This document shows, piece by piece, positions 12,080 through 55,055 of a stretch of 64,000 nt of DNA. Below the pieces are notes generated by a model that saw only the letters and a program-made list of their open reading frames with translations, had not been told where the DNA came from and did no database searches. How positions within the stretch are numbered: position 1 is the first letter of the stretch; the number at the start of each line of letters is the position of its first letter. The position numbers were made by a program, and so were the translations under genes. This DNA comes from Beta vulgaris subsp. vulgaris (lineage: Eukaryota; Streptophyta; Magnoliopsida; Caryophyllales; Amaranthaceae). The DNA lies in NCBI RefSeq assembly GCF_026745355.1, contig NC_079204.1, positions 2,549,501-2,613,500 of the forward strand, read 5' to 3'.

Positions 12080-15000
12080 TCAGTAAGATGACCATGGCCC
12101 CTTCATTGCTCCTGCTTCAAGCACAGGCATCATAGTGACAGGAGCCTTAGGGTCGAACACACCGAGCTTCTTAAGTAGCATGTTTATTAGATCACCAGCA
12201 ACATATCCAACACCTGACACCATGAATCCCATGACGACGTAATAAAAGATGGTTTTTAGATATGACTTTGGAGGCCTTCGGACATATGCCTTTGCTATAG
12301 AAAGAATAGTGATACAAGCAAGCGAAGCAGCTGCTAGTGTCGCGAGTTTGTAGTCCTTGTTATCACTCTTGCGGAAGGAAAAGCCGTAGATGACAGGAGA
12401 TAGTAGGCCGAAAACAAGGTAGGATAGAATGGCAACAATTGCATGCAGCACATAGTGGCCTGGTCTTCCAAGTTGATCTTCATAACGCTCTGTTGCTTGC
12501 TCATGTTTCAGCACCCTTAGCTGCAGAGCAAAGGTATCATGAGATGCAATCCTTTCTTTTATGGCAGATCTAATATCTTTTTTAAGTCTAATTCATTAAG
12601 AGAGCGTTTGGTTAGGAGGAAAACATTTTCTACAAAAGCTTTGTTTGGTTAAAAAAAGTGTAGAAAATAGTCCTCCAAGGATGGAAAACATTTTCCTTTT
12701 CAGAAGAAGGAATGCCACATTTTCCTCCATACTCTTTTGTGTTCTCCCATCCACCTTCTTTCCGTCCCCTTTTTTCTCTACCTTTTCTTCTAAGAAACCA
12801 AACAAAAGACAACTACTTTGGCAATTTTTTTTTTCTCTTGGAAAATGTTTTCGATTAAAGATAATTTTTCATTAAAAATTATATTCCACTCAATTTAACA
12901 GAGCCTAATTGATTAAGATTCCTTTCTTTAAGTTTCAGTTCTATAATTTTATGTATACTACCATTACACACATTAAATTTTCTTTATGTCTTAATGTAGT
13001 TCCAACCCCGCATCATAATTTATTGTCAGGATTCCAATTCTTTTCCATAGTACTGGGATTTTTATCACCTTCCGGACAAAAATTTGGTGTAGGCAACAAA
13101 AATGCTCAATTACTACGAAAAAGGATGTTCAAAATTTAGAACTCTCAGAGCCAAACTTCTGGCGCAAAAGTGGCAATGACTTATGTTCGTTTACTTTATT
13201 ATGCTTGTAAGAAGCCAAAATGACACTGACATTAAGCTGAGATGAAACTTACACTATGAAGAAGAACAATCAGCCCTCCAAAGACGTTTGCAAGCCCCAA
13301 AGCTACAATATTCACTGCAAGCAACACAAGATAGGACAATTATGATGTTCATGCAGCTCTCCAAACAACTTAGTGACATACGAACTAGCATTAAGGCATA
13401 TATAGCTTCTACATATACATAAAATGCAACCAGACATTTCTGAAGTTGTTTTATGCAAAATTACCATCATTAGCATATAATTTAGACTTGATGAAAGCCA
13501 GAAAACTCACATGTGGTGGCATCTCCACCAGCTGCAGAAGTTATTACACTTAGGCTGGTGATGCATTCCAAAAGACCGCCATACACAATGGCTTTAATTA
13601 TGTCCAACCCAGAAACTCCAGGTCTAGGAAGTTCAAGTGGATGTTCCAGGAGTGATTGCTTAATGCCCAGTGAAGGTCCTGATCCAGATGCATCAGGATG
13701 TGTGACTGAAGGTTGAGGCATAGGTTCATCAGAAATTGGCACGATCACATCCAGTGAAGGCCGTGATTCAGATGGATCACGCTGTGTAACTGAAGGTTGA
13801 AGTTTAGTTGCATCAGGAAGTGGCACGATCACCTCTTCTGTATTATAATAACATTTTAAGTCAATGATATAAGACAGAAAAGATAGTCTTTCATTTAAAA
13901 AGTTGAATTTACGGATCCTACAATTCATTATCACCCTAAGAATAACATAATGAACACAGAAGGCAACATCTCTAAGGAATATAATACTACTATGACTTAG
14001 TAAGATCAGAGAGGGGTACCGTTTGGAGGAGTACGAGGAGCTTCTGGCTCAGGTGGTGATAGGATGTCTGCATTATAGTGCAAGCAAGATTAAAAAGCCT
14101 CTTCAAAGATCATTTATGGACATTATATCATGCTACTTATATTTCAGAGAGGAGAGATACCATCACCAGGATTTATGGGAGATATAGGCTTAGTTGATAA
14201 TAGTTGCCCTACATCACATAAGAAATAAATAAAAATAAGCCTCTTATTCTGTTACTGATTGACTGGAGATGATGAGGTCCAGAGGCTATACCGGGTTCAG
14301 CTTTTACAGGAGGTTGAGGCATAAGAGGTACTTGTATATCTGCATCATAACAAATAGAAAGCTAATGAGCCTCTAATTTACGGCTGGAAACTATGTTGTG
14401 ACTTGTGATATGGACAAATTGTTTGATAGCATCTGGAGACAAAGGTTTGATGAATTAAATCAATAGCGGAATTTACCATCGGATGGTGCTGCAGGAGGTT
14501 CCCTCTCATGGTGTAAGACCCCTGTACCTGCATGGCAGAGACATGCAGCAGCGAGACAATGAGTCTTAATTTAAAGAATTGAATTTAAAGCTGAAAATTA
14601 ATTAAATATTTAAATTTCTAAATACAAGACTTCAATAATCCAATTGTTTGTTTTCTTTTGTTTTGTTTGGGGAGTTTCTTCAAACGGAAGGAGCAGAGAT
14701 GGAATCAGATCCTTGTCTGAAATGGGGAATGAATTTTACTTAAGTTTCATTGATAGCAGAAAAGGGTTTGAAGCTGGTATTTTACCTGGTTCCTTTGAAG
14801 GTTTTGATCTGCTTTCATCCATGGACGGTTGACAGCAGGTCAGGAACCATAATGGAAAACCTGTTTCTGCCACTGCCAGTAGAAGAAAGTTAAAACTTAG
14901 CGCAGAAAAGGTCAATCACACACAGAAATGCAAGCACAGATGTGATTAAGGGTGAGTGAGCAAGAGAGAGCAATGGATACCTGCTCCAGGTGTTACAAGA

Positions 15001-18000
15001 GGTTTGTGTTCAGGGAGTACAGGGACATCAGCATCTTTACACAAGAAGACAATAAGCCTGTTAATATGTTGCTAAAGGAGTTGGATCACAATGCTGATTG
15101 ATTAGAGAGGGCAGTGGGAGGGAGGGTGTACCATAAGTAGGCGTTTTGAAAGATTGAGCAGTAGAAATTGAAATATCTACATCAAAGCATTACAGGAAGG
15201 AGACGAATAAGACACTAATTTACAGCTGGAAATTGTATAATACAACTAATTGAATTTATGACTGCAATACGATATAGGAGGAAGACGATGAAGCTCTTTG
15301 AACACAAAAATAGGAAGACACTTACTCTGAGATGGTGGAGGAGGACGTTCACTCTCGTGGGGTGGTACTTTTGGACCTGCAAAGTAGAATCAGGTAAGCA
15401 TCAGCCACCTGAGAATTTGACTGTACATCTCTTGAGCAGAATAATACTAAATTAGACTGACAGGCTGAAAGCCTTTGATAATTAAGCCAAAAAAAGGTTT
15501 TGGTTCATGCAGTATCTTCTAACAGCGGAAAGGTATTATTTTTTGAAAAAGCTCAAGTAATTGCTCACGAGTACTGAGTAATGATTTCTCACTGCTAAGT
15601 TCAGGCTTCAGGGGTGAATCACTACAGTGCAAACCTTACAACAGCAGAAAGTGGACAACAGGCTTTCTCACAAATGCTCATCACTACAATGCAATATGGA
15701 ATATTAACATTGGTGAACCTTGACATTAGGAAATTGCAGATTCAATAATTTAATCTAGAGAAGATTAGCATTTAACAGGATTGCATTGGTGTGAACTGGT
15801 TCAAACAAACTTGTTTTCGGGAATATTATATAGTGAAGAGGAATTATTAGTGCCGTGTGATGGAATAAGAAATTCCCTGACAAGGCTTTGAAGAAACTTG
15901 GACATCTAACAGAGACAGAAATGTTGTGCGAGAATACACTCACATAGTCATGTCTATCTGCGTACGTGTGTGGGAAAAGAAGAGAGAGAGGAGAGCTACA
16001 TACCTTCATCAGATATCTCAAGAACTTTCTGTTTAAGTGGTAACTTGATTTCTGCACCATCAATCAAAAAGATCATGATAAGACTCTAATAGTTTATTGC
16101 TGATAACAGTTGTGAGTACAGCATGCTACTGAAAGGTTAGCCAAGAGAGAGGTACCGTCAGAAGGGTCTATGGGAGTCAGGGGATCCTTAGATACTGCAG
16201 AATCATAGGAAGAAATGGCTATAATTTACAACAACTTACAATTGGAAACTCAAGACATGCTAATGATTAGAGAAGGGGGGAGGGGAATGTACCAGATTCA
16301 AGTACTGCAGGAGATTGAGTAGGAAGTACTGGTATGTCTACGTCATAACACAATATAAATAGAAACAATTAAATCTCTTGCTTATAGATGAAAACGTAAA
16401 AATTGATTAGGATGAGGGGAAAAAGGAAGTTGCTTAAACAAAGGTTGGGTAGAGTTTAGCAATTTACCATCAGATGGTGCTGAAGGAGAGTTCGTCTCAT
16501 GGGTTGGGACTTCTGTGGCTGCACAGCATAAACACACAACTATGAGCCTGCTAGAAATGGTGTCAACAACCCACCAAATAAAACTATGCTAATTTTGAAA
16601 TGATTCAGGAGAAGAAAGGTTTTTATTCAAACCTTGGGTGCTCTCATTTATGCATTATACAGGAAATATTGAAATTAAAAAAATGCATACTACATAAATA
16701 TGAACAATGAGCTACTTTTCAAGTACATACTCCTTTTCTTAAATTGCAGTTACACAATACATTAAAAGATTATTGACATAATTACTTGTTTAATGTTTGT
16801 CTGAGAGAAGAAACGGGTTTGAGGTCAATGATGACGTACCTGTTGATGAATGCTCTGGTTTGACTTTGTCAGAAGGTTGACAGCAGGTTAGGAACCACAG
16901 TGGGAAATCCTTGCCTGACAGTAAAGGATTATTAGTACTCAAAGCAGAAGTCACTTGAGAACAGATACGCCTTAAATGTCAGAAGTTGCAATAAGCAAGG
17001 TGAGTTAGAGACACACAGAAAATGAAACATACCTCCTTCAGATGTTACAGGAGGTAGAGGTTCTGGTGCTAACAAAATATCTGCATCATTTCAGAAAGAT
17101 ATAAGGATAAGCCTTCAATCAATTAATGGGTAGAATATCTAGCTTGTTAGGCAGCTACTAATAACAAGAAAGAGTAGGTACCCTCAGCAGGTCCAGTGGA
17201 AGGTGGTAAGTCTACATAATCACAGAAAGAAGAGTGATAAGCCTCTTTAGAACTTACAATATGAAACCTTAACTGGATCAGATACTAATTGACCGAAAGA
17301 GAGATAAAGAGACACAGAGTACTAGAGTAGGGATGTACCAGTATCATCAAGTATTATAGTAGGTTGACCTTTGTGAGGTATGGGTGTATCTGCATTAAAG
17401 CAACATATACAGACCTTTTAAGACTCTGATTTATCAGATGGAAGCTACATCATACTACTACTTGGATTTTGGTGTAGTTGACTGCTAAAGACATCACAGC
17501 ATAAGGAAATGAAGTTCTGGTAAACAGAACAATGCGTTTTATACTTGTTATTTTTAAGGGGTGAGGTGGGGGGGATGTTTGATGGATAAGCACACAATGG
17601 TATGATACTTACCATGAGATGGCGGTGATGAAAGTTCACTATTAAGGGGTGGGACTGCTGCACCTGCATATTGGAACAAGTACTAGCACCTTAAGAAATT
17701 TGGTTTCAGGGTCCTTTTAACAGAACTACATAGCCACTAATTCCAAATTGAACAAGAAGAAGAAAAGTACCATCATCAGATATTGGTGGGAGCCTGGGTT
17801 CAGGCTTCGGTACTGTTTCATATGCATAAAATAGAGGGTTAGAAAAGAAGAGATGTATCCATAGAATGTGAAGGGGACAGTAAACCTCGTTTCAAAAGTT
17901 TGTCAGTCAAATGCTCTGGTGAGCTTAGATAAATATTTTTGCCAGCAATGTATATCACAATTCCTGAGAGGTTACAAATATAAAATTTTGTTTTTTTGTT

Positions 18001-20582
18001 CTCATATCTAAAGGTTTTAGAATTTAAAGCCAATACCATACCTGGCTTCTCAGTATGGTATGGCTGACAGCAAGTCAGGATCCACAAAGGAAAAGTCGTG
18101 CCTGCCATTAAAAGGACAATGCCTAAAATGTTATAGAAGAAACAAAGAATCCTAAAAAGTAAGAACTCAAAGCAAAGTTTTATTCAAAGAAGAAATGGAA
18201 GACATCTCTTCAAACTCATCAACTAAGGATACCTCTGCCACCATCTATTTCGGTTTCCACTGGATCCGTGGATTCGGTTGATGCGTCACCTGCAATCCCA
18301 TCAAACAATGATGTTAAAAGTGATGTTCAGTCTATCCCATTAATATGATTAATCTTAGTTTCTAATAGCTGCTGACAGCCTAGTTTACTGCATTGTCAAA
18401 TTGTTTTGTATTCCTGATGGTACTGGTTCATTAGGGTGTAAATTTTAGATTTGTCTACAGGGTAACAGACTAAAATTTCGAGAAATTGCATTATAGATAA
18501 TAATATTATTTCAAGGAAAGTCAACACCACTTCAAGGCAACAATGATCCATAAACTAATTCTCAAAAGAGGAATTTGAGAGTTCAGACAAATACTTTACC
18601 TGGCTGCAGCAAGACAGCTTGTTTAGGCTTGAATCTCCAGCATAGAAAACCATCTCCTGTTAAGTTAGATACAGAGTTTAGAACCAAGGTAGTTAAACTT
18701 ATAAGCAGAAAAAAAAAAAAAAATGCAATATCCTAGCTGAAGTTAGTGGATTGTATCTAAAGATGCTTTGTTCTCAGACATTAGAAATACAAATCTTAAT
18801 TTTACATAAGGCTAAAGTGTACTAAGAAGTTTATGGGAAACCTTACAGGCTTACATCAACATTTCTCAACTTTAGTTCCCAAATGGCCTATTAACTCAAG
18901 CACATTTTCAGATTTCAGCAACATGGCTCAAGAGAGGAACTTCAATTAACAGATACAGTATTAAAGCCTACCTTTAGGAACGAAAATGCTGAAGCACGAA
19001 AAGCACGATATGGCATCAAGACGCGCATCTGGACCTATTTCATCTCGAGGAAGTTCATTTTCTGGCTCCCTTTCATCTATCTCAGGAACTTCATCAGGAT
19101 TCATGGGAGTCAATTTACCATCTTTTTGTGCAACACTTTCATCCTTGGAAATGTCTTGGATTTTTCTTTTTCTTCTTTTCAGAATGACTCGTTTGGTAAT
19201 ACATGAATGACAATTAGGACAAAATAAATCATGTGTTTCCTGATTCTGTATCACCCTCTCAACATCAAATCCTTCAACTTCTGGTTCAACTTCTTGAGTA
19301 TGGCCTGTTTCAACAATTTCATTTTGGCCATTTACAATCAGAGTTTTGTTCACTATATTTTCAGTATTATATGTCTCAAACGGCGTGTCATTGACGCCGT
19401 TTGAGCCCTCATCCAACAAGCTCTCCACATACTTGAGTCCAACAGCTATTTCTGGGCTCTTAGAGAAACTAGAAGTATTCAGTCCGGTATCCGTTTCCTC
19501 ATCTCCTCCATTGATATCTGGAGAAGAGTATTCAACAACACCATCCCCATTTTGTTTGACATTGAATCCATTGTTGTCTGCAAGCAATAAGCAATTAACT
19601 CGTCTGTAACATAACAAAAAACTAAGTTTTACCAATATCAAAGATAAGCAACACTAAATTCCATTAACAGGAGATATATCTGGACAAAAAAGTAAGATAT
19701 ACAGAAAATTCAATGAAATTTAATTCCTTTCCCAAAAATTCATTGAAACACAGACAAATTAGTTTAGTTGGGTACATAAATTGGCTCAATTAAGAGGTTG
19801 AATTTTACTGAATAAAGAGGTGGTTTACAGTTCCATGAAAAGATTACACCTCAAATCTTAGTTCAGTAGAACTCAAAAACTTTCCTAATCAAGAATTGCA
19901 GACATAAATCTAGCAAGCAGAAAGTTTTCCAAAATTACCAAAAAAGAGGAAACTACTTACAGCATTTCATATGCAATTCACCCAAAATATGAAAGAAAAA
20001 AGCAACAACATTAGATGAATTAACAATCAACTACACCTTCATACAGATAATCATTTCTCAAATTTGGAGCAAAAAGATCAAATCTTTGGAACTGGGTAAT
20101 ACTCAAAAATCATGGATAAATCCAAAATTAACTAAATTTTCCTACTTTTTAAGACATTTTACTCAAAACCCACATGAAAATTACTAAAAGTAAAGATAAT
20201 AAACAGTGCCCATCAAATAAATTGACTTGCAAAAAGAAAAAAAAAAAGTGGGTCTACCTCCATTTTGTGCTACATTAATGTCATTATTCTCTCTATTATT
20301 GGGCTCCTCTTCATCAACTTCAGACAAAACTTCAACAGTATCTTCTTCAGCAACAAATTTACCCTCAATAATATTATGATTTTCACCATTTGTAACACTA
20401 ATAGTAGTATTATTATCCATACTTGCAGAATATTCAAAACTACTGTCACTTGTTAAAGTACTACTGTCACTGCTGGTAGAATTGTGACTTTTAATTGGTT
20501 GTTGAGATTCAAATCTTCTTCTTCTTGTTTGTAAGTCTGCACCAATTAATTCTTCATCTTCTCTTTCATAAGTGACCTCCAT
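12080..20582 (-). CDS. Membrane protein of ER body-like, long paralogue with 21-microexon insert
   Basis: I read 26 coding exons on the minus strand: 20258-20582, 18972-19577, 21 microexons (listed in the array entry), 13511-13837, 13253-13314 and 12080-12520. They total 2841 nt, or 946 residues. Residues about 1-310 are acidic and Ser-rich with a Cys motif CPNCHSCITKR, a basic stretch (KRRKRK) and CFSCFSIF. Residues about 311-670 come from the microexons and are Pro-rich with repeated Cys-Cys modules. Residues about 671-727 include a 28-residue tandem repeat. The rest is the VIT/CCC1-like membrane domain, closely matching the neighbour at 6714, including the same 62-nt exon. The start is the ATG at 20582, with a TATA-like box about 70 bp upstream. 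Splicing was inferred from GT-AG sites, and every junction keeps frame. Function is unknown outside Brassicales; metal transport is a family-based inference. Confidence 0.82.
12601..12905. mobile_element. Possible old TE in the last intron of the long MEB-like gene
   Basis: The stretch begins AGAGCGTTTGGTT and ends CAGAGCC. It is bracketed by near-identical 12-mers (taattcattaag and taattgattaag, one mismatch). The interior has inverted ggaaaacatttt words. It resembles an aged hAT-type or foldback insertion, but the ends are weak. Confidence 0.35.
13665..13832 (-). repeat. 28-residue coding tandem repeat, two copies
   Basis: Inside exon 13511-13837 the protein repeats a 28-residue unit twice. 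Both units start VIVP, share QPSVT in the middle and contain the PSL near the end. The first unit spans 13749-13832 and the second 13665-13748, each 84 nt, so frame is kept. The unit begins with the same [DE]-x-x-VP pattern seen in several microexons, so this exon may contain fused copies of the same module. Confidence 0.85.
14020..18101 (-). repeat. Tandemly amplified multi-exon block (phase 1-1 microexons)
   Basis: Exons in protein order, with block letter: 18042-18101 A, 17771-17812 A', 17613-17663 B, 17339-17389 C, 17182-17211 D, 17033-17080 E, 16840-16914 A, 16468-16518 B, 16293-16337 C, 16156-16194 D, 16004-16051 E or A', 15326-15376 B, 15132-15176 C, 14981-15034 E, 14786-14866 A, 14477-14527 B, 14292-14339 C, 14161-14208 D, 14020-14067 E. 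Two related-size exons precede them (18600-18656 and 18233-18289). All 21 are multiples of three (30-81 nt) and all introns are phase 1. Type A encodes FPLW[IF]LTCCQP in all three copies. Type B carries a P-x-H/N-[EST] core and ends PPSx or APSD. Type C begins D-I or D-T and is rich in P/Q. Type E begins D-[IA] with PP or LP. Copies of one type lie mostly 1.0-1.15 kb apart (about 0.85 kb in the last unit). One A and one D are missing in the third unit. Confidence 0.8.
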
Positions 20583-21245: not shown

Positions 21246-21831
21246 AATTTTTTCCTTGAATAATGCAAAAGTGGGTTTTAATTCCCAAAATATGCCCAAA
21301 AATAAAAAAAATTCCCTGCGTACCGTCCACGTAGGACGGCACGCGAGAAACTAGTTTTTTTTTTTGTTTTTGCCCAGGTAAACCGCTACTCTAAATAGCG
21401 GTTTATACACATAAACCGCTATCTCAAGTAGCGGTTTATAAATATATACTACAAGAAAATACGTATCAACGACGGCTAAAAGCCATCGCTAATGACAAAA
21501 AACAGTCGCTGAAATCACCGACGGCTAAAAGCCGTCGCTAATGACAAACAACAGTCGCTGAAATCACCGACGGCTTTAAGCCGTCGCTAATGACAAAAAA
21601 CAGTCGTCGTTGTTGTAGGAGTAGCGTTTATCATAATAAACCGCTACTTGAAGTAGCGGTTTATAAAAAAAAAATTCAGTAAACCGTTACTTCAAGTAGC
21701 GGTTTTGTTGGAAGTAGAAAAAAAAAAATTCTCGCTTGCTGTCCTACGTGGACGGTATGCAGGGAATTTTTTTATTTTTGGACATATTTTGGGAATTAAA
21801 ACCCACTTTTGCATTATTTAAGGAAAAATAT
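21246..21831. mobile_element. Long foldback element with nested CACTA-like core
   Basis: The outer arms match in reverse complement for about 110 bp: TAATGCAAAAGTGGGTTTTA and TAAAACCCACTTTTGCATTA, then arms around CCGTCCACGTAGGAC and GTCCTACGTGGACGG. Inside are four hairpins of the form AAACCGCTA...TAGCGGTTT. At the centre, 21448-21620, is a CACTA-type end (ACTACAAGAAAA) followed by three copies of an approximately 50-bp unit containing GACGGCTAAAAGCC and a ..GTTGTTGTAG.. opposite end. No coding capacity. Confidence 0.8.
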
Positions 21832-54699: not shown

Positions 54700-54762
54700 G
54701 TTAGAAGTTTTCTTCATGAATTTCTTAATTTCAGTCTTCATTCTTTTCCTATTTTCCATTTT

Positions 54763-55055
54763 CAGTTGGACTTTGTTTTGTTTCAGTTGGACTTTGTTTT
54801 GTTTCAGTTGGACTTTTTTTTGTTTCAGTTGGACTTTGTTTTGTTTCAGTTGGACTTTGTTTTGTTTCAGTTGGACTTTGTTTCGTAATATGTATACCAA
54901 CTGAAACAAATAATGGACCAACTGAAACAAAAAATGGACCAACTGAAAGAAATAATGGGCCAACTGAAAGAAATAATGGACTAACTGAAAAAAATGAAGA
55001 CTACCTGAAAAAAAAAATGAAGACTACCTGAAAAAAATTGAAGACTACCTGAAAC
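54763..55055. repeat. 21-bp tandem array followed by an inverted 21-bp array
   Basis: Six copies of CAGTTGGACTTTGTTTTGTT-type 21-mers run from 54763 to about 54886. From 54897 the complementary theme appears as CCAACTGAAACAAATAATGG-type 21-mers (four clear copies), then ACTACCTGAAAAAAAATGAAG-type units to about 55055. The two arrays can pair as a long imperfect hairpin. Confidence 0.85.

Follow-up and report, generated by a model that had tools for sequence, protein, structure and literature searches.

A tandem array of 21 symmetric microexons in a MEB-like gene of Beta vulgaris

Introduction

How a plant membrane protein comes to be encoded in part by a long run of very small exons is the question raised by a locus of Beta vulgaris subsp. 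vulgaris, found in a 64,000-nucleotide stretch of DNA (here the window; C3:2549501-2613500 of a 569-Mb, 20-contig assembly). A preliminary description, made from the letters of the window alone, had placed 21 successive exons of 30-81 nt, all of phase 1-1 and multiples of three, between an N-terminal cysteine region and a VIT-like membrane domain. It had sorted most of them into types A to E recurring in the same order about every 1 kb over about four units, and had proposed that the block was copied as exons plus introns and that any exon could be skipped in frame. The available text of PMC11922923 presents the MEB subfamily as VIT-like transporters whose N-terminal region is long and variable and lacks an assigned role.

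Results

Gene model and exon composition

The gene (LOC104888095, a VIT-like gene assigned to the MEB subfamily) lies on the minus strand from 20582 to 12080 of the window, and its chain of 26 coding exons, modelled from splice sites over the whole gene, encodes 946 aa. Exactly 21 internal exons of 30-81 nt were found between 18656 and 14020, all multiples of three, of phase 1-1 and bounded by GT-AG, so that the location and the exon properties given in the preliminary description were confirmed. RefSeq isoform X4 (P0002) is identical to the modelled protein at 930 of 930 aligned residues; it is a separate annotation of the locus, the underlying DNA of which is probably not independent of the window, and one of 17 sequences in its own 90% cluster. 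The exons are as follows.

20258..20582, minus strand, exon 1 with the start codon, phase 0-1, identical in RefSeq P0002
18972..19577, minus strand, exon 2, Cys region CPNCxSC ... CFSC, phase 1-1, five cysteines (C228, C231, C234, C300, C303) invariant in 42 of 42 aligned homologues
18600..18656, minus strand, microexon A0 (GFLCWRF), leading exon, weakly like type A, 57 nt
18233..18289, minus strand, microexon F0, leading exon, weak F match, 57 nt
18042..18101, minus strand, microexon A1, FPLWILTCCQP, 60 nt
17771..17812, minus strand, microexon B1, 42 nt
17613..17663, minus strand, microexon C1, 51 nt
17339..17389, minus strand, microexon D1, 51 nt
17182..17211, minus strand, microexon E1, 30 nt
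17033..17080, minus strand, microexon F1, 48 nt
16840..16914, minus strand, microexon A2, FPLWFLTCCQP, 75 nt
16468..16518, minus strand, microexon C2, 51 nt
16293..16337, minus strand, microexon D2, 45 nt
16156..16194, minus strand, microexon E2, 39 nt, X4 consistent with a 3' site 24 nt farther upstream
16004..16051, minus strand, microexon F2, 48 nt
15326..15376, minus strand, microexon C3, 51 nt
15132..15176, minus strand, microexon D3, 45 nt
14981..15034, minus strand, microexon F3, 54 nt
14786..14866, minus strand, microexon A4, FPLWFLTCCQP, 81 nt, X4 consistent with a 3' site 6 nt farther upstream
14477..14527, minus strand, microexon C4, 51 nt
14292..14339, minus strand, microexon D4, 48 nt, missing from RefSeq isoform X4
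14161..14208, minus strand, microexon E4, 48 nt
14020..14067, minus strand, microexon F4, 48 nt
13511..13837, minus strand, exon V1, 84-nt in-exon tandem repeat, then the first VIT-like helix
13253..13314, minus strand, exon V2, VIT-like domain
12080..12520, minus strand, exon V3, remaining VIT-like domain and C-terminus, stop codon 12082-12080, fold match to VIT1 (6iu4, 6iu3)

The acidic N-terminus and the Cys region come from exons 1 and 2, the VIT-like membrane domain from the last three exons. Introns 1 to 24 form an unbroken run of 24 consecutive phase-1 introns, and 15 of the 21 microexons do not exceed 51 nt. The array contributes 360 of the 946 residues, 20% of them proline, with seven cysteines; A1, A2 and A4 have one Cys pair each. 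Directly after the array, exon V1 carries an 84-nt tandem repeat (13667-13832; two copies of 28 codons each), which lengthens the linker a second time, here within an exon alone.

The gene was placed in the MEB subfamily because its product is homologous to MEB-like proteins of angiosperms, both in the Cys region and in the membrane domain. For the VIT/CCC1 (DUF125) membrane domain the outcomes were mixed: Foldseek gave VIT1 as the best match and the sole PDB entry at E<=0.001 (6iu4, E 1.0e-3, target TM 0.51; 6iu3, E 1.2e-3, 0.54) and PF01988 is precomputed on many relatives, while the beet protein itself had no PF01988 match in Pfam at E<=1 and a sequence comparison of the family with PDB chains found none. 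The AlphaFold model is of poor quality overall (mean pLDDT 46), with values of 70-84 in places in the VIT-like helices; in the array it shows no residue with secondary structure, and none of the 36 ten-residue blocks between 311 and 670 has a mean above 54.

Repeat structure of the array

Comparison of 13990-18700 with itself gave 13 matches at E<=1e-3, against none in 100 dinucleotide shuffles, and one match (E 6.6e-4) in a reversed-sequence control of a larger segment. Since 8 of 11 array-sized control stretches of the window also match themselves, repetition alone is not the point; the specific feature is that the self-matches keep to exon type: exons of one type pair with each other, and their introns with them. 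Their offsets fall at about 0.85-1.17, 2.0-2.3 and 2.7-3.2 kb, so the periodicity of about 1 kb, on which the preliminary description had made its proposal depend, is present. Exon spacings agree with it: 1145, 1142 and 849 nt for type C; 1052, 1161 and 837 for D; 1209, 1029, 1017 and 967 for F, the first interval starting at F0, a weak match; 1017 and 1986 for E; and for A, 555 (A0-A1), 1187 (A1-A2) and 2048 (A2-A4).

When exons were aligned with 60-nt flanks, A1/A2/A4, C1-C4, D1-D4, E1/E2/E4 and F1-F3 clustered, types D, E and F proved mutually related, and the leading exons A0, F0 and B1 grouped only weakly with other exons. The earlier naming A to E was re-ordered, the unit now reading A-C-D-E-F. 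Read in this way, the third unit is without A and E. No A-exon remnant was found in the 627-nt intron of unit 3: the candidate for a decayed A exon scored within 100 shuffles, while the A2/A4 control exceeded all of them. Exons and introns aligned together across units, and all 6 C-to-F unit pairs scored above all 100 shuffles, which supports the proposal that exons and introns were copied together. Duplication of a block of two (units 1-2 giving units 3-4) was also considered; the offsets near 2.0 kb fit it, and the unit scores do not decide the order. The repeats are about 60-77% identical, which suggests that the array is old.

Frame closure, isoforms and candidate splicing signals

The last base of a microexon is G in 20 cases and A in one. 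As this final base opens the next codon, any order-preserving subset of the cassettes splices without stop or frame shift: no stop codon arises at any of the 253 possible forward joins among exon 2, the 21 microexons and V1. Skipping of any exon therefore keeps the frame, as had been proposed, in a formal sense, and the annotated isoforms are consistent with it. X4 carries 20 of the 21 microexons with borders as modelled save two alternative 3' sites: D4 is missing from it, E2 is preceded by 8 extra residues and A4 by 2, and upstream AG sites matching both extras are present in the window. K4Q463 (P0003) is without 12 of the 21; of its 775 aligned residues 28 are mismatched, in part where the alignment paired unlike segments. 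It resembles an allelic variant and is perhaps no more than a gene prediction.

Similar differences are annotated elsewhere. P0007 and P0008 of A. tricolor, apparently products of one gene, are identical at 762 of 762 residues and differ by segments of 29 and 16 residues and a 2-residue shift, and the A. hypochondriacus products P0009 and P0010 differ by 10 and 92 residues. Annotated isoforms of beet and Amaranthus thus differ by microexon-sized in-frame segments, exon borders being known for beet only. Thirteen more pairs of annotated products, from legumes, poppy and others, were compared: in 7 of them one product is shorter by an in-frame linker segment of 20-137 residues, and the rest show differences of 1-5 residues or within the N-terminal part. 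The isoform diversity of the array is at present an annotated, predicted one.

A CTCTC or TCTCT motif, picked after the sequences had been inspected, occurs at intron positions 7-50 after 11 of the 21 microexons, against a mean of 2.6 for windows drawn at random from these introns, with overlap of the tested stretch allowed, and none of 2000 draws reached 11. The first part of these introns holds 28 such motifs and the remaining 2626 nt hold 6. The tract follows 9 of 12 D, E and F exons and 2 of 9 A, B and C exons (Fisher p 0.03, post hoc). The two groups have no significant difference in donor strength (p 0.11), and several microexon donors score low. D4, missing in X4, is without a tract, but E1, F0 and all four C exons also lack one and yet are kept, so that no tract is required for an exon to be included in X4. 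Purine motifs of the GRP20 type were considered as well; purine runs in the 21 microexons reach at most 9 nt. In an Arabidopsis PTB2 reporter, according to the available part of PMC10914923, the exon-skipped form alone remained once the pyrimidine-rich motifs downstream of a cassette exon had been lost, and the CU tracts of the array may be a parallel to these motifs.

The A motif and its distribution

Over the 11 codons of FPLW[IF]LTCCQP, the three copies pooled give pS 0.81 and pN 0.03, with about 7 synonymous sites per pair. The values are 0.31 and 0.34 for the C exons, 0.38 and 0.55 for D2/D3, and 0.48 and 0.45 for F1/F2/F4/D4, and these linker exons (C, D, F) show no constraint of the A kind. 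A hand count gave about 9 synonymous changes against 1 amino-acid change in the A codons (binomial P 6e-6 if the synonymous share is assumed to be 0.21, and 3e-4 if it is 0.33), in a test that covers 11 codons only, of copies that are not independent, in a stretch picked after inspection; because the motif was picked for looking conserved, these statistics are descriptive. In the first A motif, residues F, P, W, C, C, Q and P are invariant in 11 of 11 proteins of an alignment picked from motif-bearing relatives.

Homologues were taken from a first protein search (the best 120 of 141 matches), and P0122-P0125, found in a later search, were outside the scan. A pattern written from the motif-bearing sequences themselves was present in 17 of these 120 (P0002-P0015 and P0017-P0019), with 1 to 3 motifs per protein. 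Apart from P0017 and P0018, the 15 named carriers belong to Beta, Amaranthus, Spinacia, Chenopodium, Saponaria, Heliosperma, Gypsophila and Carnegiea, which we take to be core Caryophyllales; the order was confirmed for two genera. The relatives from Amaranthus, spinach, quinoa, Saponaria, Gypsophila and Carnegiea have the same motif with Pro-rich stretches between. The scan did not detect the pattern in the remaining 103 of the 120, including Bienertia (P0016), Ancistrocladus, Drosera and Rumex. A link of the array to the distinct seed-iron pattern of Caryophyllales was dropped, since in the available text of PMC6341002 that pattern is also found in Polygonaceae, while Rumex is without the motif.

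Linker repeats were sought in 34 proteins against shuffles. Strong repeats unrelated to the array occur in Apium (P0028, 163-residue offset), Aristolochia (P0031, 94), Cichorium (P0029, 60) and Gypsophila (P0015, 50), and the linker therefore seems prone to expansion in several plant lineages. The linker repeats of three Arabidopsis sequences were not above their shuffles; 6 of 10 legumes were likewise not above them and 4 were above by 1-4 points. Among motif-bearing proteins, P0006, P0012 and P0014 were only 1-3 points above and P0011 was not above.

Paralogue and array fragments in the genome

6714..10750 (limits approximate), minus strand, tandem paralogue with exon-1-like, exon-2-like and V1-V3-like segments

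Nothing similar to the microexon array was found in this paralogue by blastn and tblastn. Its Cys region is partly changed, with CSSC and SYVT in place of CPNC and SCIT.

In the whole assembly the array matched 14 places, one of which is the gene itself. Exon D1 with its flanks (window 17613-17228) recurs at two loci (L011:4443-5536 and L012) as a 382-bp array fragment between two direct repeats of about 358 bp; the enclosing repeat is 95-97% alike between the two loci, and from this arrangement the copies are read as captured exon fragments. The C3-D3 intron (window 15337-15153) is copied at two C3 loci (L013 and L014) sharing a several-kb repeat, 95-96% alike. One locus (L010) has a copy of A0 (window 18683-18590), one diverged locus (L009) has copies of F0-A1 (window 18317-18036) in two places, and six further matches are of 35-50 bp.

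Two other tandem repeats were recorded in the window: about three copies of a 49-nt unit with a self-complementary stretch (GACGGCTAAAAGCCGTC) at 21465-21606, upstream of the gene start, and a nearly perfect 21-nt repeat of 5.9 copies at 54760-54883.

Discussion

The account that we prefer, with a probability of about three in four, is that the linker of a MEB-type protein was lengthened by copying of symmetric microexons, the A exons being its working part and the linker exons spacers. The linker between the Cys-rich N-terminal region and the membrane domain would have grown through recurrent unequal exchange at phase-1 introns, in which a symmetric microexon block (A-C-D-E-F) was copied along with its introns; with the leading exons this makes 21 cassettes. 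The array would encode a disordered Pro-rich arm with three copies of FPLW[IF]LTCCQP, in which the linker exons may serve mainly as spacers. The A exons would most likely provide a short docking or membrane-anchoring Cys-Cys motif, possibly S-acylated, the copy number of which would set valency, and the CU-rich tracts just past the 5' splice sites probably aid splicing of the D, E and F exons. Of all this, the gene model, the repeats, the closure of the frame, the spread of the motif over the scanned homologues and the contrast in selection are observed; the exchange mechanism, the side of the membrane, the roles of A peptide and CU tracts and the use of isoforms in tissues are proposed. The array looks like an old feature of its clade, mostly drifting around one strongly conserved exon type, and not like a fresh amplification.

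The alternative that survives best, which we think possible though clearly the less probable, is a neutral by-product: similar phase-1 introns recombine, the linker tolerates disordered inserts, exon number drifts, and the isoforms are splicing noise. The linker exons, with pN about equal to or above pS, fit such drift, as do the unrelated repeats in the same linker of Apium, Aristolochia, Cichorium and Gypsophila, the seven product pairs of 13 that drop a linker segment in frame, and the neighbouring paralogue with no detected array. It accounts less well for A exons that stay FPLW.LTCCQP at near-saturated synonymous distance, for the recurrence of the motif in all the genera named above from Beta to Carnegiea, and for 21 intact frames with their splice sites.

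We regard it as unlikely that the A exons are thiolate metal-binding sites that feed or sense iron or manganese for the VIT-like domain, exon number setting metal capacity. To our knowledge an adjacent Cys-Cys with a hydrophobic FPLW flank is no classical metal site, and the array is predicted to be without structure. What speaks for such sites is the Cys pair in A1, A2 and A4 within a protein bearing the invariant CPNC..C/CFSC region, and the report of MEB3 as a vacuolar iron transporter in the available text of PMC11922923. That the exon chain is partly a modelling artefact, the real transcript skipping most of the array, is very improbable, for the 12 microexons missing from K4Q463 and the low-scoring donors are outweighed by the borders of X4 and by relatives encoding the motif and Pro-rich stretches.

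Beyond the preferred account of a lengthened linker with working A exons, a more far-reaching version is put forward only tentatively: a combinatorially closed splicing array of 21 stop-proof cassettes, whose spacer exons are governed by CU tracts (PTB-type) and whose splicing sets arm length and Cys-Cys valency, in a linker that was repeatedly and independently a target of tandem expansion across angiosperms.

No description of the exon array of the beet gene was found in the open-access literature searched, and the available texts of two MEB papers (PMC11922923, PMC3947992) contain no word beginning 'exon'. Because tandem exon duplication in CENP-C and the micro-exon genes (MEGs) of schistosomes are already known, the array is best seen as a large plant form of a known phenomenon. 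As far as the accessible part of PMC549713 describes it, grass CENP-C has tandemly duplicated exons 9-10 and 11-12 and is likewise a plant gene with exons copied in a poorly conserved middle region, with recurrent gain and loss and three copies in rice. Its exon pairs, however, are of about 25-38 residues, in up to three copies and partly under positive selection, whereas the beet array is a five-type block of 30-81 nt exons, 21 in total, with one type conserved between copies.

Schistosome MEGs, in the available text of PMC4350168, share a region of mostly very small symmetric exons, and their alternative splicing yields similar proteins; they are genes of an animal parasite with secreted or membrane-anchored products, whereas the beet gene encodes a plant membrane protein with repeat-derived exons, and the two are likened by structure only. 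In MEGs most of the coding sequence lies in tiny symmetric exons; in beet the 360 of 946 residues are part of the gene, as in VAL-6, which joins a MEG-like part to an ordinary gene. Judged by homology and exon structure, then, the beet gene is a MEB-subfamily gene built in part like a micro-exon gene.

Arabidopsis MEB1-3, clear homologues, have the same long variable N-terminal part and C-terminal VIT-like membrane domain in the accessible parts of PMC11922923 and PMC3947992, but the linker of the Arabidopsis proteins P0122 and P0123 (261 residues) has no Cys and no internal repeat above 20 shuffles. The known plant microexons, some of which need special factors for splicing (PMC8831610, PMC10808074, as available), share with the array that they are small plant exons; the available text of PMC8831610 covers exons <=15 nt and has no word beginning 'tandem', and a tandem array is described in neither of these texts.

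With such cassettes the plant could make a flexible arm of the protein longer or shorter and still keep the protein intact. The array is a compact natural experiment in how tandem exon duplication builds modular plant proteins, in which A-motif number varies from 1 to 3 between relatives, one exon type is conserved among drifting neighbours, and the adjoining paralogue with no detected array serves as a control. It also offers a testable crop case of microexon splicing control, in an iron-transporter family with a long N-terminal region of no assigned function.
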